Shown piece after piece: positions 23,473 to 46,859 of a DNA stretch of 64,000 nucleotides. The notes beneath the pieces are model-generated. The model saw nothing but the letters and a program-made list of their open reading frames with translations, was not told the origin of the DNA and searched no databases. The first letter of the stretch is position 1. Each line of letters begins with the position of its first letter. Both the position numbers and the translations under genes were made by a program. Origin of the DNA: Candidatus Aminicenantota bacterium (lineage in GTDB: Bacteria; Acidobacteriota; Aminicenantia; Aminicenantales; Aminicenantaceae); NCBI GenBank assembly GCA_020348385.1, contig CP070750.1:2594476-2658475 (forward strand). Reading direction: 5' to 3'.

Positions 23473-23559
23473 GAATAACTCTCCTCGAGATTAGGTTAAT
23501 TTCCATTCCATTCTATGGATTTTATCTGCATTAAGCAAATAAGGATGCTTGGTATTTCC

Positions 23560-23588
23560 TTGACCCAGACCTCTTGTTCCTCTATACT
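23560..23588 (+). promoter_or_regulatory. Strong sigma70-like promoter for the sulfatase maturase
   Basis: TTGACC at 23560-23565, a 17-base spacer and TATACT at 23583-23588. It lies inside the possible N-terminal extension of the maturase, which argues that the ATG at 23626 is the true start. Confidence 0.65.
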
Positions 23589-23625
23589 TTTCCCGACATT
23601 CCATCCGGAGTTGAGATACCGAATA

Positions 23626-24768
23626 ATGGCCAAAGCTTCTCGGGATTTTCAGGTATTTGCAAAGCCGGCAGGTCCCCTCTGCAACCTGGACTGCGCGTAT
23701 TGTTATTACTTAAAAAAAGACCAACTCTATCCCAAGGGAGAGTCCTTTTGCATGCCCGAAATCATCCTCGAGGAGTATATCGTTCAACACATCGAAGCAT
23801 CCACAGAACCTGTGATCCGCTTTTCCTGGCATGGAGGAGAACCGACCATCTTGGGGCTGGAATATTTCCACAAGGTCGTAAACCTCCAGCGCAAACATCA
23901 GCCCCCCAACCAACGCATTATGAATGGCATGCAGACGAATGGAACCCTCTTGGATGATGAATGGTGCCGGTTTTTGTTCGAAGAAGATTTTTCCGTTGGA
24001 CTGAGCCTAGACGGTCCGCAAGAAATGCATGACAGATACCGAAGGGACAAAGGAGGCAATCCCACGCATGAACTCACGATGCGAGGGTACAAACTGCTGG
24101 ATCATCATCGAGTCTCCACCGATATCTTGTGTGTGGTGAATGCTCACAACGTCCGATATCCATTGGAAGTCTATCGATTCTTCAAGCGGATCGGAGCCAG
24201 TTACGTGAGTTTTTTGCCGATGGTCGACCACCAACCAAAAGCTAAAAATGGTGTCAGTACTCTTACTGTTCCGTCAGATGCTTGGGGCACTTTTCTCTGC
24301 ACCATCTTCGATGAGTGGGTGAGCCAGGATATCGGGAAGATCAAAGTGCAAATTTTCGAAGAGGCTGCCCGAACAGCCTTTGAGCAGGAACATTCTCTTT
24401 GCATCTTCCGGCCCATCTGCGGGGATATTCCTGTCATAGAACACAACGGAGACTTTTACTCATGCGACCACTTTGTGGATGCAGAACATAAACTCGGAAA
24501 CATCATCGAAACTGTGCTTGCCCGGCTCCTCGAGAGTCCTGTGCAGCGAGCATTCGGGAAAACCAAGCTGGATTCCTTGCCCCGCTACTGTCGGGAGTGT
24601 GAAGTCAAGGCTATGTGTAATGGAGAGTGTCCGAAAAACAGATTCATCCGGACACCCGATGGAGAAGATGGATTGAATTACCTATGCGCTGGGTACAAAC
24701 GCTTTTTTTCCCATTGCATGCCTTTTATCGACGAGGTCGCTGCCGAATGGAAGAGGCAGGCTCCTTAA
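23626..24768 (+). CDS. Anaerobic sulfatase-maturating radical SAM enzyme (anSME)
   Basis: The 380-residue enzyme starts MAKASRDFQVFAKP. The radical SAM cluster motif CNLDCAYC lies at residues 19-26 and is followed by YYLKK, typical of anSME. SLDGPQEMHDRYRR carries the conserved region with a candidate catalytic Asp. The C-terminal SPASM domain has CGDIPVIEHNGDFYSCDHF and CRECEVKAMCNGECPKNRF, giving the auxiliary [4Fe-4S] clusters. By family knowledge it oxidises Cys or Ser in the CxPxR or SxPxR motif of sulfatases to formylglycine without oxygen. All three local sulfatases have Cys, so it can serve them in trans. Its own promoter (23560-23588) is divergent from the GH9 run. Its start codon has only a weak ribosome site. 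Confidence 0.95.
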   Translation: MAKASRDFQVFAKPAGPLCNLDCAYCYYLKKDQLYPKGESFCMPEIILEEYIVQHIEASTEPVIRFSWHGGEPTILGLEYFHKVVNLQRKHQPPNQRIMNGMQTNGTLLDDEWCRFLFEEDFSVGLSLDGPQEMHDRYRRDKGGNPTHELTMRGYKLLDHHRVSTDILCVVNAHNVRYPLEVYRFFKRIGASYVSFLPMVDHQPKAKNGVSTLTVPSDAWGTFLCTIFDEWVSQDIGKIKVQIFEEAARTAFEQEHSLCIFRPICGDIPVIEHNGDFYSCDHFVDAEHKLGNIIETVLARLLESPVQRAFGKTKLDSLPRYCRECEVKAMCNGECPKNRFIRTPDGEDGLNYLCAGYKRFFSHCMPFIDEVAAEWKRQAP

Positions 24769-24776
24769 TCGCAACA

Positions 24777-24813
24777 ACAGATAAAAATATCTGTCAGGTT
24801 TTGAGTTTTTCTT
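24777..24813 (+). terminator. Hairpin with T-rich tail between maturase and DLH
   Basis: ACAGATA (24777-24783) and TATCTGT (24788-24794) form a perfect 7-bp stem with an AAAA loop, followed by TTTT, TTTTT and TTT runs up to 24813. It fits a terminator for the plus-strand maturase and overlaps the last base of the convergent dienelactone hydrolase. Confidence 0.5.
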
Positions 24814-25684
24814 TAAAAAATGCGATCGTGCGTTCAAACGCCAATTCGGCTGCTTCTTTGTCGTATCGGGAACCGGTATCATTATGAAAAGCGTGCCCTG
24901 TTCCTTCGTAAATATAAATCTTGTAATCCACCGAGGCCTTCTTGAGAGCCTCTTCGAAAGCCGGGATTCCCGCATTGATCCGTTCGTCTTGACCCGCATA
25001 ATGGCAGAGCAAAGAGGCTTTGATCCTGGGGACATCTTCAACGGTAGGTTGCCTTCCGTAAAAGGGAACCACAGCCAATAGATCCGGAGAATTCACAGCC
25101 ATTTGGTTGACCATGCCTCCCCCCCAGCAGAAACCCATACAACCGACCTTTCCTGTGGATTGGGGATGCGTCATCAAGTACTTCACAGCAGCCACATTAT
25201 TCTTTATCGTGGTTTCACTATCCAGCTTCCGCATCAAGGATCTTGCCTCATCGAGATTATCCTTCGGCGTCCCCCCCAAAGGGGATAGGGCGTCGGTCGC
25301 AATGGCCAAAAATCCCTCCAAAGCCACACGCCGGCTCACGTCTTTGATATGGGGTTGAAGTCCTTTGTTTTCATGGATCACGATCACACCAGGGAGCTTT
25401 TCCTCTCCTTTCGGCCTTGCCAAATAGGCCCGCACATCGCCAGTTTCCCCGGGAAATTTCAAATATTCCGTATACAACCGAGAATCATCCTCGGCGACGA
25501 TTTGAGCTTCGGCATGGCTGTTTTCAAGAATAGGCAACAGGGCAAAAGCGGCAGCCGACCCCCCAGCTATTTTAGCCAATGTCTTGAGAAATTCCCTCCG
25601 GTTCAATCCTCCGTTTTTGTAATCCTCGTATAATCCTACAATTTTTGACTCCATGGACTTTTTCATGTTTTTTCCTCTTCTCAT
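24794..25684 (-). CDS. Dienelactone-hydrolase family protein with twin-arginine signal
   Basis: The 296-residue product starts at an ATG with a GGAGGG site seven bases upstream. Residues about 27-55 read LNRREFLKTLAKIAGGSAAAFALLP, a twin-arginine-type signal placed after a 25-residue polar leader. The alpha/beta hydrolase has VIVIHENKGL (oxyanion region), GFCWGG with nucleophilic Cys, AGQDERI with Asp and GTGHAF with His, which is the Cys-Asp-His triad of dienelactone hydrolases. Classical members open lactone rings; a polysaccharide-lactone or ester role in this operon is possible but not proven. It is the last gene of the minus-strand run, 70 bases after the sulfatase. Confidence 0.9.
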   Translation of the reverse strand: MRRGKNMKKSMESKIVGLYEDYKNGGLNRREFLKTLAKIAGGSAAAFALLPILENSHAEAQIVAEDDSRLYTEYLKFPGETGDVRAYLARPKGEEKLPGVIVIHENKGLQPHIKDVSRRVALEGFLAIATDALSPLGGTPKDNLDEARSLMRKLDSETTIKNNVAAVKYLMTHPQSTGKVGCMGFCWGGGMVNQMAVNSPDLLAVVPFYGRQPTVEDVPRIKASLLCHYAGQDERINAGIPAFEEALKKASVDYKIYIYEGTGHAFHNDTGSRYDKEAAELAFERTIAFFKEKLKT

Positions 25685-25754: not shown

Positions 25755-27302
25755 TCAACGTGAATGGATAGGGGCACTCCGCCCTTCAGATTTGTATTTC
25801 TCGAGCAGAAGGGTTAATTGTTCCACTATGTCCGGATGTTTTTCCCAGAGATCATTCTTCTCGTTGGGATCGGATCCCAGATCATACAGCTGTCCTGGAG
25901 TATTTGGCTCAGGAGGCCCACCGACAGGTTCTACCCAACCTCCCGAAGTTTTATTGTCGCAGATGAGTTTCCAGTTACCCCGGCGAATGGCAAATGTTCC
26001 ATTCTCGGAATGGGAGACAAGGGAATCCCGGACTGGATATTCTCCCTTTTCCCCGAGCATGGCTGGCAGGATGTTATAGCTATCCGGCCCCGCTTCTGCG
26101 GGCAAATCTGTGGTCAGGATTGCCGCGCAAGTCGCCATCAGATCCGTTAGACAGACTATCTCATCGCATGTGGATCCTGGGTGGATTCTTCCTGGCCATC
26201 GAGCGATAAAAGGGACTCGATGCCCGCCTTCCCAGATATGGGATTTGTACCCGCGCAGCGATCCGGAAGACCGATGCCCCTCAGTTCCATGCCGAGGGCC
26301 GTTGTCGCTGGTCACGATAATCAATGTTTGGTCCGCTATTTTTAGCCGATCCAGGGCTTTGCAAACCTCACCCACGCACCAATCCACCAAATAGACCAGG
26401 TCTCCCCTCGGTCCATCCTGGCTTTTGCCTTTAACAAAATCAGGCGGAAGCCAAGGAGCATGGGGAGATGAAAGAGGGAGGTAGACAAAAAATGGCCGAT
26501 TGGGCATCTCCTTCTGCGTGTTTTCCATGAATGCGATGGCCTTCTCGGTAAAAGTGAGATCCACATCTTCTAGATCGAATCCCCGGGCCATCCATCCAGG
26601 ACGGGGCCTGAAGTCCGGATGTTTGCGCCCATCCACAAAAATGGGCTCATCGGGGATTCCCACGGTATATCTGTTTTGGATGTAGGCAAAGGGACCATCA
26701 ATCGTAGAACAGGCCGCTGTATAATAAGCTTCATCAAAACCGAGGTCCTCCGGTCCGCCTTGGACAGGCTTGCTGAAATCGACGTTCATCCCCTTTCCCG
26801 GATCTCCATCTTGCCAAGAACCTCGCCACATTTTTTTGGCATCTTTCCATGTGGGTGTGAATCCATTTTGCCGAGTCCAGCCCAAACCGATGTGCCACTT
26901 GCCGAAACATCCTGTCCTGTACCCATGCTGTTTTAATAATGACGCTATAGTCAGACGATCAGGTTCGATCAAAGGAGGGGTATAGCCTCCGACCACGCCC
27001 CTTTCCAACCACGTGCGCCAACAATATCTTCCTGTCAGAACGCCATATCGTGTGGGTGAGCAAACCGCAGATGGAGAATGGGCATCGGTGAAGCGGATCC
27101 CCTGATTTGCCAGTTGATCCATGTTGGGTGTGGGAATCTTGGACGCGGGATGGTAGCATTTCACATCCCCATAACCCATATCATCGGCCATTATAAAAAC
27201 GATATTCGGTTTTTTCTTCCTTTGATCAAAAACTTTGCAATCACTCCCCGCAAGCGTGGCTGCTCCCCATCCCAACATCTTTAAAAATTGTCGTCTAAAC
27301 AT
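25755..27302 (-). CDS. Twin-arginine-exported sulfatase (Cys-type, S1-like)
   Basis: A 515-residue arylsulfatase-fold enzyme. The N-terminus MFRRQFLKMLGW is a twin-arginine-type signal. Active-site elements are the metal-binding MADDMGYGD, the formylglycine motif with Cys81 in AVCSPTRYG, GKWHIGL, the second metal site in TSDNGPRHG and a C-terminal subdomain. Length is usual for the family. No clear ribosome site precedes the ATG (AATTTTAAAA), and it lies 15 bases after the LamG-1 stop, so translation may be coupled. It needs formylglycine formation, available from the anSME at 23626. Substrate is a sulfate ester on a sugar; regiospecificity cannot be told. Confidence 0.93.
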   Translation of the reverse strand: MFRRQFLKMLGWGAATLAGSDCKVFDQRKKKPNIVFIMADDMGYGDVKCYHPASKIPTPNMDQLANQGIRFTDAHSPSAVCSPTRYGVLTGRYCWRTWLERGVVGGYTPPLIEPDRLTIASLLKQHGYRTGCFGKWHIGLGWTRQNGFTPTWKDAKKMWRGSWQDGDPGKGMNVDFSKPVQGGPEDLGFDEAYYTAACSTIDGPFAYIQNRYTVGIPDEPIFVDGRKHPDFRPRPGWMARGFDLEDVDLTFTEKAIAFMENTQKEMPNRPFFVYLPLSSPHAPWLPPDFVKGKSQDGPRGDLVYLVDWCVGEVCKALDRLKIADQTLIIVTSDNGPRHGTEGHRSSGSLRGYKSHIWEGGHRVPFIARWPGRIHPGSTCDEIVCLTDLMATCAAILTTDLPAEAGPDSYNILPAMLGEKGEYPVRDSLVSHSENGTFAIRRGNWKLICDNKTSGGWVEPVGGPPEPNTPGQLYDLGSDPNEKNDLWEKHPDIVEQLTLLLEKYKSEGRSAPIHSR

Positions 27303-27317
27303 TTTTAAAATTCAGGA

Positions 27318-29471
27318 TCAATCCCCATCCACTGGGCTCAAGGAGATTTCGACAGTCTGATCAGTTTCCCGATGGAGCCAGACCACCAGGTCATATCGGT
27401 TAACCCGCCGGATGTGACCGTAGCGGAAGAACTTCCCTCGAGGAACCCGCTTCCCGTTCACATAGATTTCCGCATCACGATTTCCCCAATTTTCCACGAT
27501 AAATGCAGGGTTGATAATCGGAGAATCTGGATTGCCTTCTAAGATAAATTGAAGTTTCTTTTCGATTCCATTCTCAAATCCCAAAATCACATAACACCGT
27601 TGAGTCAGGTCATAAAGAGCTTCTTCTGATCCGTTTTCAACGATAAGCTTGGGAGGCAGAAGCCACGAACGTCCCAAGGGAACCAGAGATACAGCCTCAT
27701 CCTTCGTGGCGCCATACATCCAAGCCCACCAGTAGGTTTTCCCTTTTCCTTTATGAGCGGGTGGCCCTCCCCAGGCAAGCGAGAAATGGGATGCCCGGTC
27801 AGCGGCTTGGCAATAACGACCGTCAGAGGGCACTTGAGACACCGGCCAGTGATTCCACCAGGGGAAATGGGAAAAGCCTTTCCGATGCTCGTGGGCGAAT
27901 ATCGAAAACCGATTGGACGTTTCGAAAATTTGAAAGGGTTTACATTCCGATTTCATGTTGACTCGCATTATGACCGGTCTTTCTTCAGGCTCGGTGCCGA
28001 AGTGAAGATACTTATCTCCCTCTCTCACCTTTGGTGTAGTATCGGCCCAAGTGTAGGTGTGAGACTTTCCCTTGAGATTGACTAGAGTCATGGCCGAAAG
28101 CTCTACAACATCCTCCGGCGTTTGACCTGGTTGGCAAAGAGCGATCACTTCCTCAGGCCACAGGGAGCGTCCTTCGGAATGGAGCACGACCTTCCGGATG
28201 CCGACTTGATCGGGATAAAAAGTGTAATATTCGTCCACCCAATCTTCCCATCCTGAGATGGGATTGACCTGGGAGTGGTTTTTGTTGGCCGATGTGGGAC
28301 AATAACGCCAGTGGACAACGACCCGAGCCGGTGTGTTCTCGATGATTCGGACATGGGAAAAGCGGCAGCGGGGATCAAGCATGTGTTCAATACAACCATC
28401 CCGGTTGTTGAAGTTTTCGATGCTCTGGTCTGCCATCCACATATTATTTTTCATGACCCAAGCAGGTCCGTATCGCGTTCCCCGCCAAAAAACCACCCGC
28501 ACCGGCGAATCATCGAATTGGACCACGACATCTGGATCGGAGGAGACCGGCCAGAGCGCATCCCATTCGGGATAATACTGGAGGCGCATGTAGGATGCTC
28601 CGAAAACTCCAGGACCGGGTGGGCCCGATGGCATGATTCGTGCTGGAAGATCGGGTTTATCTTCCGGCGTGGACGCCTTGTAGTTTTCTGCGATCGTTTC
28701 TTCCTTTAGAGCATTGTTGTGAATCAAAACCTCGTCCAAAATTCCATCCAACGAATACCAGCAGGCCAATGTGGCGAACGCACGGACGGGATGCGTCGGT
28801 TCGAGCATCTGATGGGACATTCCCATCCTGAGATCTTCATCTTCCGCTTGACGAAATCTGCCGTCGATTTTCATTCCGCCAGCCTTTTGCCCGTCAACGT
28901 ACAGGACAACACCCTCGTCCTGATGGAACGTGGCTGCAACATGAGTCCAAGTGTGTAGCGGGATCTTCTTTTCTGTCCGGCAGACGTTCCACCCTTGGGC
29001 GCCGATGTGCAGCCCCAGGTACCCTTCCGGACTGATCCCAAAAAAGAATCCGGCCTTGGGCGAATTCACCACGATGTCGTCTGGCCAACAGACCATGTCC
29101 TGATTCGAGTTCATGCTGATGGTATTCTCCTGCGCAACGATGGGGGCCCAGTTCCAGGGATAGGCGCCCAAAGCAATCCAAGCCTCGAGGGTAAAATCCG
29201 GGCCAAACTTCGGAACATTGTCTGTCTGCTTAACAATACAAGTCGTGTATCCATCCATCACAATGGCCTGGCCTTTTACACCTTTAAGCAACCGGAATTT
29301 CCCCTCGATTGTATCTTTTTCACCGCTGATAATGTCTTGGACCTTCCCCTCCTCTACTCGATCAAAGCTCCATTGCGCAACCATCGTGTCATCTTGGGCC
29401 CTTGAGATGTTTGTCCCAGAGAAAACAACACATAGGATTAAAACCAAGAATTTCCATGCCTCTATTCTCAT
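27318..29471 (-). CDS. Secreted LamG protein, paralogue 1 of 3, with uncharacterised C-terminal region
   Basis: The ATG at 29471 follows AAAGGAGAG and starts a Sec signal (MRIEAWKFLVLILCVVF); 717 residues result. A LamG/concanavalin-like domain occupies roughly residues 30-260 (WSFDRVEEGKVQD, DGYTTCIVKQ, FTLEAWIALG, TWTHVAATFHQDEGVVLYVDG). Behind it comes a block conserved in all three paralogues: PSGPPGPGVFGASY, QFDDSPVRVVFWRG, CRFSHVRIIENTPARVVV and WVDEYYTFYPDQVGIRKV. The last 150 residues are beta-rich and end with a small Ig-like part. No known catalytic residue set can be assigned, although the conserved Trp, Asp, Arg, His and Tyr residues suggest carbohydrate binding or an enzyme. It lies between the sulfatase and zinc alcohol dehydrogenase genes. 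Confidence 0.85.
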   Translation of the reverse strand: MRIEAWKFLVLILCVVFSGTNISRAQDDTMVAQWSFDRVEEGKVQDIISGEKDTIEGKFRLLKGVKGQAIVMDGYTTCIVKQTDNVPKFGPDFTLEAWIALGAYPWNWAPIVAQENTISMNSNQDMVCWPDDIVVNSPKAGFFFGISPEGYLGLHIGAQGWNVCRTEKKIPLHTWTHVAATFHQDEGVVLYVDGQKAGGMKIDGRFRQAEDEDLRMGMSHQMLEPTHPVRAFATLACWYSLDGILDEVLIHNNALKEETIAENYKASTPEDKPDLPARIMPSGPPGPGVFGASYMRLQYYPEWDALWPVSSDPDVVVQFDDSPVRVVFWRGTRYGPAWVMKNNMWMADQSIENFNNRDGCIEHMLDPRCRFSHVRIIENTPARVVVHWRYCPTSANKNHSQVNPISGWEDWVDEYYTFYPDQVGIRKVVLHSEGRSLWPEEVIALCQPGQTPEDVVELSAMTLVNLKGKSHTYTWADTTPKVREGDKYLHFGTEPEERPVIMRVNMKSECKPFQIFETSNRFSIFAHEHRKGFSHFPWWNHWPVSQVPSDGRYCQAADRASHFSLAWGGPPAHKGKGKTYWWAWMYGATKDEAVSLVPLGRSWLLPPKLIVENGSEEALYDLTQRCYVILGFENGIEKKLQFILEGNPDSPIINPAFIVENWGNRDAEIYVNGKRVPRGKFFRYGHIRRVNRYDLVVWLHRETDQTVEISLSPVDGD

Positions 29472-29550
29472 ATTGCTCTCCTTTTTTTTCCCTAGATCTA
29501 TTTTATACAACCTGTTTCAAGCACCTCTGTATGCGACTATCACCCAAATG

Positions 29551-30570
29551 TCACAGATCTACCAGCACCTTCATCGTCTTGTCCTGGTGCTTTTCGATAA
29601 ATTCAAATGCTTTTGGGTAATCTTCGAAGGCAAAATGCTGACTGATCAAAGGATCAAGGTGGACATTCTTCGATTGTATCAAGTCGATCGCAATCCGATA
29701 GTCTTCGGCCCTGTACATCAGTGTTCCGATCATACGAAGTTCTTTATCTTGGACCAACCCGATATCCACTGATGGTTTTTCTCCGAATACGCCCACGACA
29801 ACAACGTCTGTTCCCTTCCGAGCCAAATGGATAGCGAACTCTATCGTTTCCTCTACCCCCACACACTCCAAGATGGCATCTGCTCCGTCACGGCCAAAAT
29901 ATTCCTCGACTTTTGTATCGAGGTTTTCAAACGAGACATTGACGGGATGGTCGATCCCACAGTTTTTGGCAACCTCCAAGCGGTAGTCGCTGATATCCGT
30001 TATCAAAACCGCCCTTGCCCCGAGACCTTTGGCAGATTGTGCTGTCAAGTTTCCGATCGGGCCGGCCCCGAGAATCAACAAATTCATCCCGCCGACATTT
30101 CCCAATCGCTTGACCGCATGCACACCGACCGCCACAGGCTCCACCATGGCCCCGTAATCCAGACTCATTCCTTCGGGCAGCTTCACAACCAACTTGTGGT
30201 CTACAGGGATGAATTCCCGGGCAGCTCCATCCTCCTGGCAACCGATCACTTTAAGAGCATTACAAATATGATAATTGCCGTGTGTGCAGGGATAACAATC
30301 TCCACACACCAATTGGGGCATGACTGTCACCCTGTCCCCCTCGGAAAATCCTTGGACCTTTTCGCCGACGCTGGCAATCTCACCGGAAAATTCGTGGCCC
30401 TGGACGATCGGACAGCTGATATAGGGATGTTTATCGTAGTATGCGTGAATGTCCGAACCGCAGATGCCGATCCTTTTCACTTTGATCAAAACTTGGTTTT
30501 CGGTGAATTCCGGTATATCCACCTCTTCCAAGATAAGCTTCTCCGGCTCGACCAATCTGGCTTGCCTCAT
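29551..30570 (-). CDS. Zinc-dependent medium-chain alcohol/sugar-alcohol dehydrogenase
   Basis: The ATG at 30570 follows AAAGGAGAAG; 339 residues result. GICGSDIHAY and GHEFSG (catalytic zinc Cys, His, Glu), the structural-zinc Cys set CGDCYPCTHGNYHIC and the NAD-binding ILGAGPIGNLTA are all visible. It is cytoplasmic. Close families are threonine dehydrogenase, sorbitol/xylitol dehydrogenase and L-galactonate-type 5-dehydrogenase; the operon context favours a sugar alcohol, sugar acid or sugar derivative. It lies between LamG paralogues 1 and 2. Confidence 0.92.
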   Translation of the reverse strand: MRQARLVEPEKLILEEVDIPEFTENQVLIKVKRIGICGSDIHAYYDKHPYISCPIVQGHEFSGEIASVGEKVQGFSEGDRVTVMPQLVCGDCYPCTHGNYHICNALKVIGCQEDGAAREFIPVDHKLVVKLPEGMSLDYGAMVEPVAVGVHAVKRLGNVGGMNLLILGAGPIGNLTAQSAKGLGARAVLITDISDYRLEVAKNCGIDHPVNVSFENLDTKVEEYFGRDGADAILECVGVEETIEFAIHLARKGTDVVVVGVFGEKPSVDIGLVQDKELRMIGTLMYRAEDYRIAIDLIQSKNVHLDPLISQHFAFEDYPKAFEFIEKHQDKTMKVLVDL

Positions 30571-30605
30571 CTTTCTTCTCCTTTTCTTGGGCAAAATTCT
30601 CGCAG

Positions 30606-32708
30606 TCAGATCTTCTGATTAGAAATCTTGATCTTCACTGGAATTACCGATTCTTTTTCGATCCAAACAACCAGGTTGCATCCTTCCAACGTCCGGATAT
30701 ATCCTATCCGGTACCCAAACCCCTTCTTCAAGGCTCGCCCATCAACTGCCACCACAACCTCTTCTTCTCCCCAGTTTTTGAGGATAAAACAACCATTCAT
30801 CATCGGGGAATCCGGACTCGCATCCATCATCAACTCTATAAAAGGCTCATCTGGTCCCTCATAGTTCAGTCGATAGGCCCGCTGGGAAAAATCATATCCA
30901 TCACTTCTTATGTTTCCAGAGATCACTTCCAGCTTTGGTGCCTGAACCCACGACTTGGCCAATGGAATCAGAAAGTCGAAAGATTTATCATTCATTCCGT
31001 ACAGGGAACTGATCCAAAGCCGGTCATCATCCGTATGTATAACCGGGTCCGTGATCGGAAACCCAAGGAAGCTGGCAGCTCTGTCGGTTGTCCATTGTGT
31101 GCGTCCATCGCAGCGCATCTGTCCAACGGGCCAGTGGCTGCAGGATCCCGGCCGGGATAGCGAATCGATATTCATGTCTTTGAGGTAGTGCATTCTCCCG
31201 CCCGGTTCAAATATGATGAAGGGCTTGTTTTCTGATTTCAGGTTGTGCATCTGTATCATCGGATTTTCAGGAATTGGTTTGTCTGTCTTTCTCGGTGGAT
31301 TTTGAATGTATGAAAACGTCTGCTTCTGCCCTTTCAAGTTGGCAATGGTGACATATTCTTCGTTGACCACATCCCCCTGCACCTGTCCAGGCCCTGTCAA
31401 AGGAATGGATTCTTGGAACTGTCGGGGCCTACCCAGAGATCCTTTCTCCCAGTTGTAATTCCGGATCCCTGTTTGATCAGGATAAATGTAGTAGTACTCA
31501 TCGACCCAGCAACCCCAGCTTGTCCGGGGATCGACATTCCGGAGGTTGTCAAAAGCGCTAACCGGCGCATATCGCCACTGGACAACTACCCGCGCAGGCG
31601 TGTTTTCGATGATCCGGACATGCGAATATCGACAGTGACGATCCTGCATATGCTCAAAACATCCCTCATCATCATTCCAGGCCTCCACACTTTGATCTGC
31701 CATCCAGAGATTGTTTTCAGTCACCCAGGCCGGCGAATACCGGGTTCCTCGCCAAAAAACGACTCGGACCGGAGAGTTGTCGAACTGGACGACCACGTCG
31801 GGATGATCGCCGATCCGCCACAAGTCATCCCACTCCCAGTAGTATTCAAGGTGGGTGTAATAAGCTCCAAACCGGCCAGGCCCAGCCGGACCGGATGGGA
31901 GCACACGGGGTGCGATATCTGGTTGGACAGGAAGCTTTTGGCCAGCTATGGATTTTGTGAAATTTTCCGCACCCAAAGCTTTGCCATGGATCTTGATCTC
32001 GTCCAGGATGGCATCCAGAGAATACCAATCGGGAATGGTCCCATGCTCTCTATGTATGTAGGCCGGCTTTTCTGGACCGGGAACCGAACCGATGATAAGT
32101 TCCGCTCGCCTTGGCAAGTTCATCCGCCCCTGGAATTCCAGCCGGGCCTGTTCTTGGCCATCAATAAAGACGGCAAGGCCTTTAGCCGGATCGAACACCC
32201 CGGCAACATGGGCCCAAGTACTAAGGGGTATTATATTATCAGATATACAAGTTCTCCACGCGCTCCCGGAGAAAACCTTCATAGCCAGCTCTCCGCCGGG
32301 GCCGATCTCCAGAGCATACCCTGCGCTGTTTCCGGCGTGGCTGATCACAGGACACCAGCTCCAGGGATAGGCTGCGATGGCAACCCATGCCTCGATGGTG
32401 AAAGCACCGGAAAGCACAGGCGCCTCGCCTGCTTTCCGTGTCACAATAGTGGTGTAGCCGTCAAATTTTATGGCCTCACCAGATACGCCGGACACAATCC
32501 GGAAATTTCCGCTGATCGGATCATCCAAGTTTTTGACTTTTTCCTGGACCGAATCGACAGTTTTCCCTTCAAACGCCCACCAAGCGACGGGTTTTGTCTC
32601 ATCGCATATTCCCTTCGATACAGAGAGGATTAAAATTAGCATAAAAGCTGCCGCGATGGAAAAACGCTGCCTCCCGGGATACGACCAATCAAAATATTCT
32701 TTTTTCAT
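30606..32708 (-). CDS. Secreted LamG protein, paralogue 2 of 3
   Basis: The ATG at 32708 has an AAGGGA site about eight bases upstream and is preferred to the upstream TTG at 32723. The 700-residue product has a signal peptide after a polar, basic leader (SIAAAFMLILILSVSKG). The LamG domain covers about 40-240 (WWAFEGKTVDS, AFTIEAWVAIAAYPWSW, STWAHVAGVFDPAKGLAVFIDG). The shared C-terminal block follows: PSGPAGPGRFGAYY, QFDNSPVRVVFWRG, CRYSHVRIIENTPARVVV, WVDEYYYIYPDQTGIRNY. It is closely related to paralogues 1 and 3; function is unknown. A 406-codon open frame on the other strand (31413-32633) is a composition artefact. Confidence 0.85.
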   Translation of the reverse strand: MKKEYFDWSYPGRQRFSIAAAFMLILILSVSKGICDETKPVAWWAFEGKTVDSVQEKVKNLDDPISGNFRIVSGVSGEAIKFDGYTTIVTRKAGEAPVLSGAFTIEAWVAIAAYPWSWCPVISHAGNSAGYALEIGPGGELAMKVFSGSAWRTCISDNIIPLSTWAHVAGVFDPAKGLAVFIDGQEQARLEFQGRMNLPRRAELIIGSVPGPEKPAYIHREHGTIPDWYSLDAILDEIKIHGKALGAENFTKSIAGQKLPVQPDIAPRVLPSGPAGPGRFGAYYTHLEYYWEWDDLWRIGDHPDVVVQFDNSPVRVVFWRGTRYSPAWVTENNLWMADQSVEAWNDDEGCFEHMQDRHCRYSHVRIIENTPARVVVQWRYAPVSAFDNLRNVDPRTSWGCWVDEYYYIYPDQTGIRNYNWEKGSLGRPRQFQESIPLTGPGQVQGDVVNEEYVTIANLKGQKQTFSYIQNPPRKTDKPIPENPMIQMHNLKSENKPFIIFEPGGRMHYLKDMNIDSLSRPGSCSHWPVGQMRCDGRTQWTTDRAASFLGFPITDPVIHTDDDRLWISSLYGMNDKSFDFLIPLAKSWVQAPKLEVISGNIRSDGYDFSQRAYRLNYEGPDEPFIELMMDASPDSPMMNGCFILKNWGEEEVVVAVDGRALKKGFGYRIGYIRTLEGCNLVVWIEKESVIPVKIKISNQKI

Positions 32709-32753
32709 CTCTTTTCCCTTCAAAAGACATATTATTCTTTTTTACTCCGTATT

Positions 32754-34901
32754 TTAATCTATTTTTTTAGTCAGAATCATTCTGACGGGAATTGTTGATG
32801 TTTTTTTGAGCCAGAGCAACAGATCAGTCCCATCGATGACTCTAACTGTTCCAATTCGGAAATCTCTTCCAGGGATTAGCCGTCGTCCTTCCAGCAAAAC
32901 CTCAGTCCCATACTCCTCCCAACCTTTGACAACCAAGCAAGCATTGACAAGGGGCGACTCTGAGCTGGCCAGGAATTCCAATTCCATCATAGCTGGATGT
33001 GACTCTGGGACACAGTGCACAATGTATGCCCGCTGAGAGATATCGTAGCCGCTGCTTGACGCATCTCCTTGAACGACTTTGAGTTCAGGAGGCCTGATCC
33101 AAGACTTAGCTAGAGGCAGCAATTCGGAAGCGCCTCCTAAAGTAGCACCATAGAACATAACCACCCATCTATTAGATCCTGCTCCAAGATGTCGTCGGGG
33201 TTGATTGTAAGAAATCGAGAAGCTCGTTGCCCGGTCTGCGGCCTGAACAAATCTTCCATCAGAGTGCACCTGACACACTGGCCAGTGATTGTAGGCAGGG
33301 AAATTGATCACTTTGCTCCGGACCCGGCCAACATAGACAACCGGTCTGTTTCCTGGCTCGAAAATAACAAAAGGCTTGGCCTTTGCTCTCATGTTTATCA
33401 CTTGGATAACCGGATTGTCTGGCCTGAGGTCGCGGACAATGCTCGGATCCCTAGGAAGGTTTCGCCTCTCCCGTGTATCAACGGTCTCATCGTCAGGCCA
33501 GGAATAAGTATGACTGAAACCCTCCAAGTTGAGTAATGTGAGCGCTTCGTGCTTTAGAACATCACCGGCATTCTGTCCTGGATGACAAAGGACACTCGTC
33601 TCTTGAATTTGGAGCCAGGGAAGTTCATGTCCGGATTCGGGTTGACGCCATAGGACTTTACGAATGCCTGTCCCATCTGGGTAAAATGTATAATATTCAT
33701 CTATCCACCAGGCCCACCCTGTCCTATCTTCAACCGTCCACAAGTTGTTTCGGGAACTGACGGGAGCATACCTCCAATGGACCACGGCTCGGGCGGGGGT
33801 GTTCTCTATAATCCGGACATGGGAATAGAGGCAATGGATATCCTGCATATGTTCTACACAGCCTTCATCATTCCCAGACTCGCCACTCTGATCAGCAAGC
33901 CATAGACCATTCTCCGTAATCCAAGCCGGGGAATAACGCAATCCTCGCCAGAATACCACTCGTACTGGAGAGTCATCAAATTGTACAATAACATCGGGAT
34001 GATCCGACACCGGCCAGAGAGCATCCCATTCTTCGTAATACCGAAGTCGAGTATAATATGCCCCAAAACGACCGGGTCCAGGAGGCCCTGAAGGCATGAC
34101 TCTGGGAGGAATATCTGGAAAAGCGGATGGTTGTTTTACAGAGTAGCTGTTTATAACCTCAAAAGGCGATAATTCTCTTTTGAAGATTTTGACCTCATCT
34201 AAAATCCCATCCAAGGAAAACCATGACGGAAGGGTTCCGGCGCCCGGAGGCACAGCATGGGAGGGCTTTTTTTTCTCGCGATTCATTCCAATCAAAAGAT
34301 CACGATCGAATGCCGGAGTAATCCGCCCCTTAACCAATAATTCACCCGAGATTTCTCCGTTTACGTAGAGTTTTATTCCGCTATCTGTATCGTATACAGC
34401 ACAAACATGAGTCCACTTCCTGAGAGGGATTCTTGCTTCGGAAATGCAGTTCTTCCATTCTCGATTAACTGCTGCATGGAATCCGACCTCTCCCTGAGGG
34501 CCAATTCCAAAAAAATAGCCCGCCTCGCCCTCTTTTTCCTGGGCAACAACGGGACACCAGTTCCAGGGATAAGCTGCGATCGCAATCCAAGCTTCAATAG
34601 AAAATGCCCCGGATAAGCGTGGAGATTTAGATGCTTCCCGGGTTACGACTGTCGTAAATCCATCCAGTTTGAGCGCATTCCCTTGAACTCCTGGTACATG
34701 CTTGAAATTTCCGGTGATGTCATCCTCGATCTGTCCAATACTATCCAAAGTCTTTCCCTCTCGGGAGTGCTCAAATTTCCACCAGGAAACTAGGTCTTGT
34801 TCATTACCAAAGGCATCGATCAGGAATATGCAACCAGCTAATAATAAACCCAATGCAACAATACTGAAGAAACTCGAATAAGCTGAATTTTTAGTTTTCA
34901 T
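32754..34901 (-). CDS. Exported LamG protein, paralogue 3 of 3 (possible lipoprotein)
   Basis: The 715-residue product has a hydrophobic signal with an LLAGC lipobox-like sequence near residue 24. If used it would make this the lipid-anchored member of the trio. LamG spans about 40-250 (WWKFEHSREGKTLDS, AFSIEAWIAIAAYPWNW, WTHVCAVYDTDSGIKLYVNG); the conserved block has PSGPPGPGRFGAYYTRL, QFDDSPVRVVFWRG, CLYSHVRIIENTPARAVV and WIDEYYTFYPDGTGIRKV. It contains a Glu/Arg-rich insertion near residue 490 absent from the others. It follows the iron alcohol dehydrogenase by 22 bases. Function is unknown. Confidence 0.85.
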   Translation of the reverse strand: MKTKNSAYSSFFSIVALGLLLAGCIFLIDAFGNEQDLVSWWKFEHSREGKTLDSIGQIEDDITGNFKHVPGVQGNALKLDGFTTVVTREASKSPRLSGAFSIEAWIAIAAYPWNWCPVVAQEKEGEAGYFFGIGPQGEVGFHAAVNREWKNCISEARIPLRKWTHVCAVYDTDSGIKLYVNGEISGELLVKGRITPAFDRDLLIGMNREKKKPSHAVPPGAGTLPSWFSLDGILDEVKIFKRELSPFEVINSYSVKQPSAFPDIPPRVMPSGPPGPGRFGAYYTRLRYYEEWDALWPVSDHPDVIVQFDDSPVRVVFWRGLRYSPAWITENGLWLADQSGESGNDEGCVEHMQDIHCLYSHVRIIENTPARAVVHWRYAPVSSRNNLWTVEDRTGWAWWIDEYYTFYPDGTGIRKVLWRQPESGHELPWLQIQETSVLCHPGQNAGDVLKHEALTLLNLEGFSHTYSWPDDETVDTRERRNLPRDPSIVRDLRPDNPVIQVINMRAKAKPFVIFEPGNRPVVYVGRVRSKVINFPAYNHWPVCQVHSDGRFVQAADRATSFSISYNQPRRHLGAGSNRWVVMFYGATLGGASELLPLAKSWIRPPELKVVQGDASSSGYDISQRAYIVHCVPESHPAMMELEFLASSESPLVNACLVVKGWEEYGTEVLLEGRRLIPGRDFRIGTVRVIDGTDLLLWLKKTSTIPVRMILTKKID

Positions 34902-34923: not shown

Positions 34924-36090
34924 TCACAAACGACAGCTTTGTTTCAGCAACTTAAAGACTTCATCCAGAGTCGCAACTTTGGGATGGTTTTTGTAATCGG
35001 GAAGAACCAGAGAGGCCTCAGCAAGAACTTTCAGCTCCTCTTTTGGTATCTTTAGATCTTCAAAGCTGGTCAGCATGCCGATATCCTTGATGAAATCTTG
35101 TATAACATCACAAGATCTCTCAGCCGCCTCGTTGTCATCTATTTGATTCAATTTATTATCGAACAATCGCCCGACCGTGGCGAATTTTTCTAGGGCATGT
35201 TGATAGCTGTATCGCATAATCGCCGGATAAACAACCGCTAACGCTTCGCCATGCATAACATGAGGATACTTACCGCCTATCGCCATTCCGATACCATGAG
35301 GTAATGTCACACCAGAATTGGCGATGCAGAGACCAGCCAGTGTATCCGCCCACGCCATTTGCGTCCTTGCATCTAGAGCACTTCCATTATTTACAGCTGC
35401 AGGTAAGTTTTTAGCGGTAAGTCGAATCGCCTCAAGTGCCATTATATCCGTATAGGGAGACCCGTTCGGGTTGATGTAGCTTTCAAAAGCATGGGCAAAC
35501 ACATCAAAACCTGTAGAAGCAGTGATGTGTTCGGGGACCGTTAACATCAATTCAGGGTCCACAATACTCACCTTGGGATAGACAATGGAATTATATATGG
35601 CTGATTTGCATTTCTCTTCCGGGTTGGTTACAACCGCAACCTGTGTCACATGTGATCCAGTCCCAGATGTTGTCGTGATTGTGATCACAGGAAGAGTTTT
35701 TTCTGTGGGCTGAGTGTCACGAAAAAACAGGTAATCCCATGCTGTTCCCTCGTGTGTTGCCTCTACTGCAATTGCTTTGGCCGAATCCATGCTCGATCCT
35801 CCGCCTAAGCCGAGAACAACATCCGCATCGTGGGCCTTTGCTAGTTCTGCTCCTTTACTGACGATTTCAGTCGTCGGATTGGGGATGACTTTATCGAAAT
35901 GGGCGAACTCAACACCGCTGTTTCCCAAAGAATCTTTCACTTGGTTAAACATGGGTTCGATTTCGGAAAACGGAGGGACAGTCACGATCAAACAGCGCTT
36001 CCCATATTGAGAAACGACCTCACCGATCTCTCCCACTCTCCCGCGACCAAATCTAATCTCAGTCGGCTGATAATAATTGAATCCTTTCAT
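34924..36090 (-). CDS. Iron-containing alcohol dehydrogenase
   Basis: A cytoplasmic 388-residue enzyme. The NAD fold shows FGRGRVGEIGEVV and VVLGLGGGSSMDSAKAIAV; the iron site is in the conserved C-terminal half, with LPHGIGMAIGGKYPHVMHGEALA. An AAGGAG site seven bases before the ATG fixes the start. Members oxidise alcohols such as 1,3-propanediol, lactaldehyde or ethanol, or reduce aldehydes. In this operon a deoxy-sugar-derived lactaldehyde or a glycan-derived aldehyde is plausible but inferred. It lies between PfkB and LamG-3. Confidence 0.93.
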   Translation of the reverse strand: MKGFNYYQPTEIRFGRGRVGEIGEVVSQYGKRCLIVTVPPFSEIEPMFNQVKDSLGNSGVEFAHFDKVIPNPTTEIVSKGAELAKAHDADVVLGLGGGSSMDSAKAIAVEATHEGTAWDYLFFRDTQPTEKTLPVITITTTSGTGSHVTQVAVVTNPEEKCKSAIYNSIVYPKVSIVDPELMLTVPEHITASTGFDVFAHAFESYINPNGSPYTDIMALEAIRLTAKNLPAAVNNGSALDARTQMAWADTLAGLCIANSGVTLPHGIGMAIGGKYPHVMHGEALAVVYPAIMRYSYQHALEKFATVGRLFDNKLNQIDDNEAAERSCDVIQDFIKDIGMLTSFEDLKIPKEELKVLAEASLVLPDYKNHPKVATLDEVFKLLKQSCRL

Positions 36091-36126: not shown

Positions 36127-37026
36127 TCAACCATAAAAATTCGTGCTTAATTTTGACCAAGCTCCATCCTGGGTGCATACATTACTCGCCAATCGATTGG
36201 CATTCTCATTTATTCTATCCAAGTCATGGCCTTCCAACAATCCCAGCATCAATGCAGCTGTAAAAGAATCACCTGCTCCTACGGTGTCTTTTACTTCGAC
36301 AGGATAACCAGGATGAACAGATTCCCTCCCTTGGCTGAATAAAAGGCTTCCTCTTTCTCCTCTGGTCAGGGCGACTAAATCAAGAGAGAACCGTTCAAGC
36401 AGAACCTGGAGTATTTTAGTTTCGCCTCCTTGTATGGAGAGAAGCTGCGCAACGACTGATAATTCTTCCTCGTTGATTTTGAGGACATTCGAGAGTTTTA
36501 ACAAATAAGCAATAATCGCCTTGCTGTAATAGGGGTGCCTCAGGTTGATATCAAAAATCCGGAGACAACTCTTTCTGGAATGTCTTAAAAAACGTCGTAT
36601 TGTATCCTGCGATCTTTTCGACCGTTGGCCTAATGAGCCATAACAAACAGCATCTGCCAGGGATGCCAGCTTGGAAAGCCCCTGTGAGAATGCAATATAA
36701 TCCCATGCGACATCATCATGGATGATATAACAAGGAATACCTTTGCTATCAAGACTAACACTGACTGAACCTGTTGGACGAGTTTTATCGATGGATATGT
36801 AGCGTCGACTCAGTCCGAGTGACTTTAAATTGGACATGATCTTCTCACCAAAAGGATCATTGCCAACGCGGCTGACGATATATCCTTCTGCCCCTAAATT
36901 ATGGACATGGAAAACTACATTTGCAGGAGCTCCTCCTAACCTTTTTCCTGTTGGAAGCAGATCCCAAAGAATCTCACCAATCCCGACGATAACGAATTGT
37001 CGCAGATGATTTGGATCGATTTTCAT
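36127..37026 (-). CDS. PfkB-family sugar kinase
   Basis: A 299-residue cytoplasmic ribokinase/fructokinase-like protein. Visible motifs are the N-terminal GGAPANVVFHVHNLGA (substrate binding), the double-glycine region and the ATP/anion-hole motif VKDTVGAGDSFTAALM with the catalytic Asp. The ribosome site is weak (AAAAAAAG). The fructokinase type is suggested by GEILWDLLPTG at the start. It phosphorylates an imported hexose, pentose or ketose; the neighbouring symporter and dehydrogenases suit this. Confidence 0.9.
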   Translation of the reverse strand: MKIDPNHLRQFVIVGIGEILWDLLPTGKRLGGAPANVVFHVHNLGAEGYIVSRVGNDPFGEKIMSNLKSLGLSRRYISIDKTRPTGSVSVSLDSKGIPCYIIHDDVAWDYIAFSQGLSKLASLADAVCYGSLGQRSKRSQDTIRRFLRHSRKSCLRIFDINLRHPYYSKAIIAYLLKLSNVLKINEEELSVVAQLLSIQGGETKILQVLLERFSLDLVALTRGERGSLLFSQGRESVHPGYPVEVKDTVGAGDSFTAALMLGLLEGHDLDRINENANRLASNVCTQDGAWSKLSTNFYG

Positions 37027-37083: not shown

Positions 37084-38709
37084 TTAACGCAACAAATAAT
37101 ACAAGACGATCATGATGGCCAGGAGAAAACCAGCCAAAAGTCGGGGATCACCGATCTTTTTGATTTTCCCTTGAGCCAGGACTCGAATGGGCTTATCCCA
37201 TGTCAGCCCTTGGATGCTTTTAGGATCGGGTTCAGGTGTCATCAAGCTCACGATGATAAAAAGAAGGCTGCATAAACAAAACATCCACCATGCCTGCATC
37301 ATAAACGGTATCCCCCACCCGTCTGTAATGACCTTAACATCTCCGATTACAGGCAAATCCACCAAAAAGGATATGGCACCCAACATAAATCCAAAGATAA
37401 GCGTTGTTAGTGCCGCCTGTTTTGTTCCTCTCCGCCAGAAAACTCCCCAGAGAAATACAGTGGTAATCGGGGGAGCCAGGTGAGCTGCGATGGCGTTTAT
37501 AGCTTCGAATATGCTGGAATACCTCCCTCCCTGGGTTGACCAGGCCATGGCCAAGATCATGACAACAACCGCGCTGATCCGACCGATCTGGACCTGTTTC
37601 TCATCCGAAATCTTTGGTTTGAAACGCTTCACGATATCCACGGCAACCAAGGTCGCCGAACTGTTCAGCGCAGCGGCAATCGTACTCATCAGAGCGGCCA
37701 ATAATCCTGCCGATATCAATCCTTTGAGGCCGGTGGGGATGAGTTGATTGATCAGCACAGGCAGGGTTTGGTTGCTGTCGGCACCAATAACATCCTTGAA
37801 AAGAACATACCCGATCACCCCAGGAAATACCATGATGAAGACTGGAAATATTTTTAACAGTCCGGCAAAAAGAGGCCCGATCTGGGCATCTCGTTGTGTC
37901 TTGGCACCAAGAACCCTTTGAACAATGGTCTGGTCTGAACACCAATACCAGATTCCCAGTATCGGGTAGCCTAAAAACACGGCATACCACGCAAGGCCCG
38001 CAGAATTCTCCGCTTGAAGCATGCTGAGCTGGTCAGGCTTCACCGCAGCTTTGAATTGAGACAGATTATGGATTCCTTGGTCAGGAAGAGCAAAGATGGC
38101 GAACAACGTCACAGCCACAGCTCCAAGCACTAGAATACCTGTCTGAATCGTCTCTGTGACCACCACAGCCTTGAGACCACCTAGAACAGTATAAATAGCT
38201 GTTACCACAGATATGATGAAGATGGATGTCACGACATCGATCCCGAAAAACTGCTTGAAAACTGCTGCCCCTGCATATAAGCTCATCCCGATGTGGATGA
38301 ATAAGGCCGCCACGATGGCCATGAATGCCAGGACCATCCGGGAACCTGGACCATAGCGTCGTTCTAAAAACTCAGGGAGGGTGGAAATCCGGCTTTTGAA
38401 ATAAAAGGGTGCAAAAACCAGGCCCAATAGAATCAGCGTGAATGTAGCCATCCATTCGAAATTGCCCCATACCAATCCCTCATTGTATCCAGAGGCTGCC
38501 AACCCGACAAGATGAATGGTGGAGATATTCGATGCAAAAAGGGCTGCTCCGACCATCCCCCATCGAAGCGACCGGCCAGCCAAAAAATATCCCTGGCTGG
38601 TCAGCTTCATCTTCCGGACGGACAAGATTCCGATGACCAAAATTCCCAGCAAATAGCTAACAATAATGATTAGATCTAGGACTGGTATGGCTAATTCAGA
38701 TCCAAACAT
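37084..38709 (-). CDS. Sodium:solute symporter (SSS/SGLT family), likely sugar
   Basis: The 541-residue integral membrane protein has about 13-14 hydrophobic segments. FLAGRSLRWGMVGAALFASNIS and GLAASGYNEGLVWGNFEW match the sodium/sugar branch (vSGLT-like); the C-terminal part has LAPPITTVFLWGVFWRRGTKQAA. It imports a solute with sodium. It starts three bases after the stop of the oxidoreductase upstream on the same strand, so the genes are coupled. The sugar identity is inferred from the operon only. Confidence 0.93.
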   Translation of the reverse strand: MFGSELAIPVLDLIIIVSYLLGILVIGILSVRKMKLTSQGYFLAGRSLRWGMVGAALFASNISTIHLVGLAASGYNEGLVWGNFEWMATFTLILLGLVFAPFYFKSRISTLPEFLERRYGPGSRMVLAFMAIVAALFIHIGMSLYAGAAVFKQFFGIDVVTSIFIISVVTAIYTVLGGLKAVVVTETIQTGILVLGAVAVTLFAIFALPDQGIHNLSQFKAAVKPDQLSMLQAENSAGLAWYAVFLGYPILGIWYWCSDQTIVQRVLGAKTQRDAQIGPLFAGLLKIFPVFIMVFPGVIGYVLFKDVIGADSNQTLPVLINQLIPTGLKGLISAGLLAALMSTIAAALNSSATLVAVDIVKRFKPKISDEKQVQIGRISAVVVMILAMAWSTQGGRYSSIFEAINAIAAHLAPPITTVFLWGVFWRRGTKQAALTTLIFGFMLGAISFLVDLPVIGDVKVITDGWGIPFMMQAWWMFCLCSLLFIIVSLMTPEPDPKSIQGLTWDKPIRVLAQGKIKKIGDPRLLAGFLLAIMIVLYYLLR

Positions 38710-38712
38710 AGA

Positions 38713-40062
38713 TCATAGGCTCCATCCATCGCGGTACTGACGGTGGATGAACTGGTCAGCTTCGGGATGGTTTGGGAATCGCAAGTTCTCAGCATCCCAG
38801 TAGAGCTTGGCATCGGCACGGATCGCTACATTTCCCAGTAGGACCGTTTCTGTCAGCGGGCCAGCGAAGTCAAAACCAGAGGCTGCCGGCTCTCCTCCTT
38901 TACAGGCTGCGATCCACTCCTTGTAGTGCCCGGGAGAACGAGAGATGGTTTTCGCAGGCCGTTGATATTCCTGCATGCGTTTTTCCGGCCAGATCCGTAA
39001 ACTGTTAGCACCATGAGATCCGCACAATATCATGCCTTTGTCCCCTATATATAAAGCCCCGCCATAGTCATCCCCCATTTTTATATCGTCAGGAATTTCC
39101 TCGGGACGAGATGGCATCAATCCGCCATCATACCATGTCAGGTGAAGGGGTGGAAATCCCGCCCGGGCGGGAAACTTATATGTGACGATGGATGCCCGGG
39201 GATAGGTCTCGGTATTTTTGGGTTTATCCCATGTTACTTTGGGAACAAAGATGGAATAGCTGGCCTCGATACTAGTTGGGGGACCTAGTTTCAAAGACCA
39301 CACGATGTGGTCGAAAATGTGGCAGCCCATGTCACCCAGACCACCGGTTCCAAAATCCCACCAACCTCTCCATAACTGGGGAAGATAACAGGGATGATAA
39401 GGGCGGAATGAGGCTGGACCCAGCCACAGGTCCCAACTCAGAGTTTCAGGGACAGGAAAAGTTTCCTTGGGCCGCTTGACTCCCTGGGGCCACACCGGGT
39501 GAGGAGTCCAAGCATGAACTCCGGTGACATTTCCAATGGCTCCATCCCATATCCATTCACAGAGAAGGCGGATGCTTTCCATGGCATGTCCCTGATTCCC
39601 CATCTGTGTGGCGACTCCGGCTTCCCGGGCAGCCTTTGTGAGTAACCGAGCCTCGTAGATGGTGTGGGTAAGCGGCTTTTCGCAAAAGACATGTTTCCCC
39701 AACTGCAATGCCGCCATAGTGGCAACGGTATGAACATGGTCAGGAGTTCCAACAACAACGGCATCGATATCTTTCCGCTTTTCAAGCATCACGCGGAAGT
39801 CGCGATAACGCGGAACATCGGGGTATTTTTTAAATGTCTTGGCTGCTCTCTCCCAATCGACATCACAGAGGGCCACGATGTTTTCACTCTCCATGCGCGA
39901 CAAGTCACCACCTCCCTGTCCGCCGACGCCGATTCCGGCGATGTTGAGCTTGTCACTGGGCGCCACATATTTTGTACCTCCGAGTACATGCCGCGGCACA
40001 ATCATCAAGGAGGATGCAGCAGCAGACAGGTTCAAAAACTTGCGTCGGGATATGTTCTTCAT
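38713..40062 (-). CDS. Twin-arginine-exported Gfo/Idh/MocA oxidoreductase
   Basis: The ATG at 40062 follows GGGAG and starts MKNISRRKFLNLSAAASS, a clear twin-arginine signal; the frame open to 40152 is too long for this. The 449-residue protein has an N-terminal NAD(P)-binding fold (IAGIGVGGQGGG), the EKP motif in VFCEKPLTHT and the C-terminal alpha/beta domain. It follows the pattern of exported Gfo/Idh/MocA dehydrogenases common in Planctomycetota and Acidobacteriota. They act on cyclitols or sugars with bound cofactor, and some GH109 members use NAD to hydrolyse glycosides; both are possible. It heads the ten-gene minus-strand run and is divergent from the sulfatase at 40389. Confidence 0.92.
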   Translation of the reverse strand: MKNISRRKFLNLSAAASSLMIVPRHVLGGTKYVAPSDKLNIAGIGVGGQGGGDLSRMESENIVALCDVDWERAAKTFKKYPDVPRYRDFRVMLEKRKDIDAVVVGTPDHVHTVATMAALQLGKHVFCEKPLTHTIYEARLLTKAAREAGVATQMGNQGHAMESIRLLCEWIWDGAIGNVTGVHAWTPHPVWPQGVKRPKETFPVPETLSWDLWLGPASFRPYHPCYLPQLWRGWWDFGTGGLGDMGCHIFDHIVWSLKLGPPTSIEASYSIFVPKVTWDKPKNTETYPRASIVTYKFPARAGFPPLHLTWYDGGLMPSRPEEIPDDIKMGDDYGGALYIGDKGMILCGSHGANSLRIWPEKRMQEYQRPAKTISRSPGHYKEWIAACKGGEPAASGFDFAGPLTETVLLGNVAIRADAKLYWDAENLRFPNHPEADQFIHRQYRDGWSL

Positions 40063-40388
40063 ATCAGGCTCCCTTTTTTTTGCATTTTTTTCCAGCTTAT
40101 CCAAACAAATAACAAAACTCAAGTTTAATGTTGCCTTAGCAGCAATACCCATAGGGCCTCATTTCCTGCTTAGATGTACCTTTTTTTTACTAAAATTGTT
40201 TCTCAAAAAAAATGGGGTTGCTTCAAATATGTAAAATCTATATCATTCCCTTGAAGTTCTTAAAAAATATCACCATTCTTAAAATGCGCTTTGTAGGCAC
40301 AAAATAAGTAATTTAACCTAATAGGAGGCAATATTTCAGCGTATTTATTTGGTTAATCGACATGCCAAAGCCAAGCAAGAGTTAGGAA
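40063..40388. promoter_or_regulatory. 326-base AT-rich divergent regulatory region
   Basis: No gene. It separates the minus-strand operon from a plus-strand sulfatase, so both promoters should lie here. A 9-bp direct repeat TTCTTAAAA occurs at 40257-40265 and 40276-40284, a 19-base period or nearly two turns. An orphan AGGAGG at 40323-40328 is followed only by a seven-codon frame (40362-40385). A weak TTGTAG-17-TAACCT pair precedes it. No riboswitch class is recognised. Confidence 0.5.
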
Positions 40389-44593: not shown

Positions 44594-44837
44594 TTTAATA
44601 CTCCCTTCTCTAACTAACACAGCTCGGAAAGGTTGTCAAAAAGACAAGCTGAAAACTCCTCAGATTTGGAAAACAATGTCCAGCGCTGAAGACATTAAAA
44701 ATAATCTTATTTAAACTTTTATGATGACCATTTCGTATATCAGTTTGAATACACCGAAAATTTTTTGGATAGCAATTTTTAGTTATAAAACTAAGAATTG
44801 AAAAGTTATGAAATCCTAAAGGTAAAGGGAGAAAATC

Positions 44838-46848: not shown

Positions 46849-46859
46849 GGAGAACACCT

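Follow-up and report, generated by a model that had tools for sequence, protein, structure and literature searches.

Three LamG-supersandwich proteins in a conserved sugar operon of an Aminicenantota bacterium: candidate exported enzymes for fucosylated or sulfated glycans

Introduction

Little is understood of how fucose-rich and sulfated glycans are broken down, and there is demand for enzymes that do so. Among described systems, sugar-utilisation clusters with GH95 alpha-L-fucosidases provide the closest genomic parallel to the locus analyzed here, the common context being a symporter, a kinase, dehydrogenases, a sulfatase and an outer-membrane receptor. At the protein level, the closest parallels are the Laminin_G_3 (PF13385) proteins with their concanavalin A-like LamG domain, and proteins with a galactose-mutarotase-like supersandwich. 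In OpgG and OpgD (MdoG), a supersandwich is combined with an Ig-like domain, a domain order similar to that of the C-terminal part described below.

We analyzed a 64,000-nucleotide stretch of a Candidatus Aminicenantota genome (the window), in which an initial annotation had singled out three genes for LamG proteins with a conserved, uncharacterised C-terminal part. We integrated profile searches, structure prediction and phylogeny with a comparison of gene neighbourhoods. The proteins constitute an undescribed, probably exported family, and no description of LamG-supersandwich proteins was found in the literature.

Gene architecture and operon context

The three open reading frames (Table 1) comprise 730, 705 and 715 codons in coordinate order when read from the first start codon, and a better ATG brings them to the 717, 700 and 715 codons annotated initially. 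Pairwise identities of the paralogues are 43–47% along almost the full length; two of the pairs aligned over about 710 residues at 46% and 43% (E = 0). The three motifs quoted as near-invariant, including WVDEYYTFYPD, recur in every copy with at most a few substitutions. All three proteins are predicted to be exported on the strength of visible signal sequences. No fourth copy was found in the source genome, which is rated about 83% complete.

Table 1. Genes of the LamG directon, in order of transcription, and the convergent maturase gene (window positions)
Feature	Coordinates	Strand	Remarks
Gfo/Idh/MocA oxidoreductase	38713..40152	-	BT_2158-like, below cut-off; heads directon
Sodium/solute symporter (SSF)	37084..38709	-	conserved operon partner
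PfkB sugar kinase	36127..37026	-	best PDB sequence match 2qhp, fructokinase; conserved partner
Iron ADH	34924..36090	-	conserved partner; 4 bp (median) from LamG gene in loci having it
LamG-supersandwich paralogue 1	32754..34901	-	715 aa; lipobox-like LLAGC within signal sequence
LamG-supersandwich paralogue 2	30606..32723	-	700 aa counted from ATG
Zinc ADH, sorbitol/threonine-DH type	29551..30594	-	conserved operon partner
LamG-supersandwich paralogue 3	27318..29510	-	717 aa counted from ATG
Sulfatase A	25755..27302	-	CSPTR motif; downstream in directon
Dienelactone-hydrolase-like protein (DLH, YghX-like)	24794..25684	-	closes directon
Anaerobic sulfatase maturase (radical SAM)	23515..24768	+	convergent neighbour; TIGR03942 above cut-off

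The genes form a minus-strand directon that spans 40152 to 24794, with neighbours no more than about 70 bp apart, in the order Gfo/Idh, SSF, PfkB, iron ADH, LamG1, LamG2, zinc ADH, LamG3, sulfatase and DLH. The carbohydrate context reported initially (three sulfatases, a maturase, a symporter and sugar enzymes) is all present nearby, and the zinc ADH does separate the first two LamG genes in coordinate order. Close homologues of sulfatase A adjoin LamG genes in several other loci. GH95 is absent from the window: the nearest copy in the source genome is about 6 kb beyond its edge and roughly 30 kb away from the operon. The Gfo/Idh/MocA gene scored 525 bits against the BT_2158 glycoside 3-dehydrogenase model (cut-off 750); it was weighed as a clue to 3-keto-glycoside chemistry and set aside, since the other LamG loci compared showed no homologue.

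Elsewhere in the window, a DPP4-like peptidase is encoded near the operon (42320–44620), and two adjacent plus-strand proteins of 453 and 417 aa (45487–48113), possibly a duplicated pair, both show weak two-component-regulator-propeller repeats. With a GH127-like (beta-L-arabinofuranosidase) protein (57925–59904) and GH9, GH2 and GH20-like genes, glycan enzymes abound across the window.

To place the operon in a wider context, we compared the window genes with 20 genomic regions chosen solely for holding a LamG protein, plus the loci L005–L007. Many carry part of a recurring order (ROK regulator, SSF, PfkB, iron ADH, LamG protein, zinc ADH, in some cases a DPP4-like peptidase, and GH95), with partners present in varying subsets. 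Within 6 kb and on the same strand as 28 LamG genes, we found zinc ADH (13/28), GH95 (13/28), iron ADH (12/28), SSF (9/28), PfkB (8/28) and sulfatase (7/28), counts that are inflated by the mutual relatedness of the loci and do not represent independent events. Where an iron ADH is present, it precedes the LamG gene by a median of only 4 bp. Two loci of other lineages by their titles (L005 and L007) have the symporter and zinc ADH nearby and an aldo-keto reductase, with no iron ADH. A parallel layout is seen in one region (L085, genome G015), which has three LamG copies plus a sulfatase of the window's type. The LamG genes thus belong to a conserved sugar uptake and metabolism operon; it is the most informative fact about them and was absent from the initial annotation.

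GH95 was seen in 10 of the 23 regions; three loci carry GH78 and a single one GH31. Together with the sulfatases and the maturase, these genes suggest that the target glycans are rich in fucose or deoxysugars and partly sulfated. In several relatives, the zinc ADH and GH95 genes of the operon are separated by a close homologue of the DPP4-like peptidase. At four loci from one family of the order (L075:17182-19759, L078:8508-11053, L079:4950-7495 and L087:4534-7279), GH95 is followed by genes for an ornithine-cyclodeaminase-like protein and a serine dehydratase, and in three of the four the pair precedes a second LamG copy. Such genes, with DPP4, are hints of glycopeptide substrates.

Fold and domain structure

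In paralogue 1, LamG occupies about residues 30–250, the supersandwich about 277–605 and a small C-terminal beta domain about 607–715. The LamG assignment made initially is borne out in all three paralogues: Laminin_G_3 matched the N-terminal ~155 residues of each (E 1.5e-17 to 5e-21; 64.6–75.8 bits against a curated cut-off of 27.6), and Pfam detected LamG in 42 of 44 aligned family members. The C-terminal ~460 residues matched no Pfam or NCBIfam family in any paralogue and no PDB sequence convincingly; NCBIfam gave sub-threshold, weak matches alone, confined to the LamG region. None of the 44 members matched a catalytic GH or PL family of Pfam, and weak matches other than LamG were of jelly-roll type or sporadic. 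A weak PDB sequence match to AgCarC2 (E 0.06–0.3) was treated as chance.

Structure prediction and a fold search of the C-terminal half, proposed in the initial annotation, gave confident models and pointed to a fold typical of carbohydrate-active proteins. AlphaFold2, run on the 44-sequence alignment, modelled the full-length protein with pLDDT 90 and pTM 0.91, and the C-terminal part alone with pLDDT 86 and pTM 0.90. The model is nearly all beta, with LamG followed by a large and a small beta domain. When LamG was left out of the query, Foldseek ranked a GH38 mannosidase, LacZ and galactose mutarotase at the top of its PDB matches, with E-values of 2.6e-5 to 7e-4, TM-scores of 0.17–0.37 depending on normalisation and rmsd of 8.5–15 Å. 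We read the large domain of the model as a galactose-mutarotase-like supersandwich, a fold class and not a family assignment because the TM-scores are low. Most full-length fold matches were to clostridial neurotoxin receptor-binding domains (query TM about 0.25, rmsd 16–20 Å, 9–14% identity) and were discarded as generic LamG jelly-roll resemblance. A search of a viral fold library found nothing.

The match to galactose mutarotase raises the alternative of an exported mutarotase- or epimerase-like enzyme, which would interconvert anomers (or epimers) of a sugar freed outside and so feed a stereospecific symporter. The tight operon with a symporter and a sugar kinase is in keeping with this, and a canonical aldose 1-epimerase (PF01263) was not found in the source genome, although this absence is weak evidence at about 83% completeness. 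Profile comparison argues otherwise: hhalign against 16 GalM sequences gave a probability of 0.1%, showing no sequence relation, and PF01263 matched none of the 44 family members by Pfam. Moreover, three diverged copies of ~700 aa with LamG, some beside sulfatases, seem excessive for such a task, and we regard it as improbable.

Sequence conservation and a LamG-less relative

The second half had been described as more conserved than LamG. This holds for the middle ~330 residues, the supersandwich (mean pairwise identity 49%, against 40% for LamG), and fails for the last ~110 (33%). Polar residues near-invariant among 38 near-full-length members (numbered as in paralogue 1) include E350, D354, R363, E366, R371, R377, E402, D409, R414, H539, R550 and D556. 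The C-terminal block also occurs without LamG, a check suggested initially for which one case was found: a 398-aa protein (L144:1324-2520), rare in the phylum and without a Pfam match, consists of the supersandwich alone and aligns with the LamG family (hhalign E 9e-11, 97% probability). By this alignment it keeps E350, R371, W376, Y378, E402, R414, E434 and HWP at 539–541. Its gene has a metallo-beta-lactamase-fold gene and a prolyl-oligopeptidase-like gene as neighbours. In genome G026 (L072 and L071), a 926-aa frame has a partial supersandwich segment preceding a complete LamG-supersandwich protein, possibly a fusion of neighbouring LamG copies.

These patterns bear on whether the proteins merely bind glycans. 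Non-catalytic surface proteins could capture glycan for neighbouring fucosidases and sulfatases in a SusD/SusE-like role; the LamG fold is of binding type, small beta domains and supersandwiches are often non-catalytic, and multiple copies of different specificity suit capture proteins. However, a core that outconserves LamG and holds invariant Glu, Asp, Arg and His is more typical of an active site, as is the retention of several of these positions in the LamG-less relative. We therefore consider a purely binding role rather unlikely, if a serious contender.

Distribution and history of the copies

Relatives were found in 26 of 142 genomes of the source class and in 13 of 396 sampled genomes of the phylum, a patchy distribution that does not match the initial description of the family as common in Planctomycetota-like genomes. 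Further relatives lie on three contigs titled Alphaproteobacteria, Vicinamibacteria and Acidobacteria; plasmids and viral contigs, also searched, yielded none. In the maximum-likelihood tree, each window copy joins copies from other genomes in a clade of its own, and all three clades are strongly supported. On this evidence the three are old paralogues kept together, so the label 'tandem paralogues' is apt for their position and misleading as to recent duplication. Recent local duplication with redundant function would fit copies that are adjacent and similar in length, yet the clustering of each with sequences of other genomes makes it hardly credible. The age and separation of the clades instead argue for different roles, and suggest differing substrates or specificities. 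With three ancient subfamilies in a single operon, specificities can readily be compared.

Proposed function

Our leading reading, in which we place about even confidence, is that the LamG proteins are exported glycan-active enzymes, members of an undescribed and perhaps CAZyme-like family, which help release sugar from a fucosylated and/or sulfated glycan. In its favour we count the visible signal sequences, the confident models, the top C-terminal fold matches, all of them carbohydrate-active proteins, the recurring operon partners, the near-invariant polar residues, some of them kept in the LamG-less relative, and the old, separate clades. Against it stand the lack of any catalytic family match, the low TM-scores, the location of GH95 outside the window and the fact that the supersandwich is non-catalytic in many enzymes, including LacZ and GH38. 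The glycan lyase or hydrolase proposed initially is plausible, but no catalytic family was matched.

Under this leading reading, the LamG jelly-roll would bind the glycan and the supersandwich would probably be the catalytic part, acting outside the cytoplasm to help free the sugar, together with the sulfatases and with the GH95 alpha-L-fucosidase that many relatives have. The symporter would take in the freed sugar. Inside, an aldose would pass through alditol and ketose to ketose phosphate by the action of the iron ADH (an aldo-keto reductase in some relatives), the polyol-type zinc ADH and the PfkB ketokinase. We infer this aldose reductase, polyol dehydrogenase and ketokinase route from the nearest solved relatives and from loci in which an aldo-keto reductase seems to stand in for the iron ADH. 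Because the iron ADH is about equally close to lactaldehyde reductases and to others, the operon's ADHs and PfkB could serve a lactaldehyde-type branch instead. A bolder version, which we hold as doubtful, is a new CAZyme family with its catalytic site in a supersandwich that has neither alpha-toroid nor TIM barrel, and which would supply an oxidoreductive aldose-alditol-ketose pathway for fucose or a related sugar. As a presumably exported protein of unassigned role central to a conserved operon, the LamG protein is a candidate for a missing activity that can be tested directly.

Comparison with known systems

The C-terminal part appears to share its overall all-beta fold with galactose mutarotase, LacZ and GH38 alpha-mannosidase, but the TM-scores are low (at most 0.37), LamG stands in front and no TIM barrel or alpha domain is attached; to the mutarotases it also lacks a sequence relation. 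Unlike OpgG and OpgD, the family members have no Pfam match to MdoG (PF04349), nor was one seen in 99 sampled genomes of the phylum. With Laminin_G_3 proteins the three paralogues have their N-terminal ~155 residues in common, whereas their conserved C-terminal 460 residues lie outside any Pfam or NCBIfam family. Compared with GH95 sugar-utilisation clusters, whose context it shares, the operon contributes the LamG-supersandwich protein as an extra component without an annotated role.
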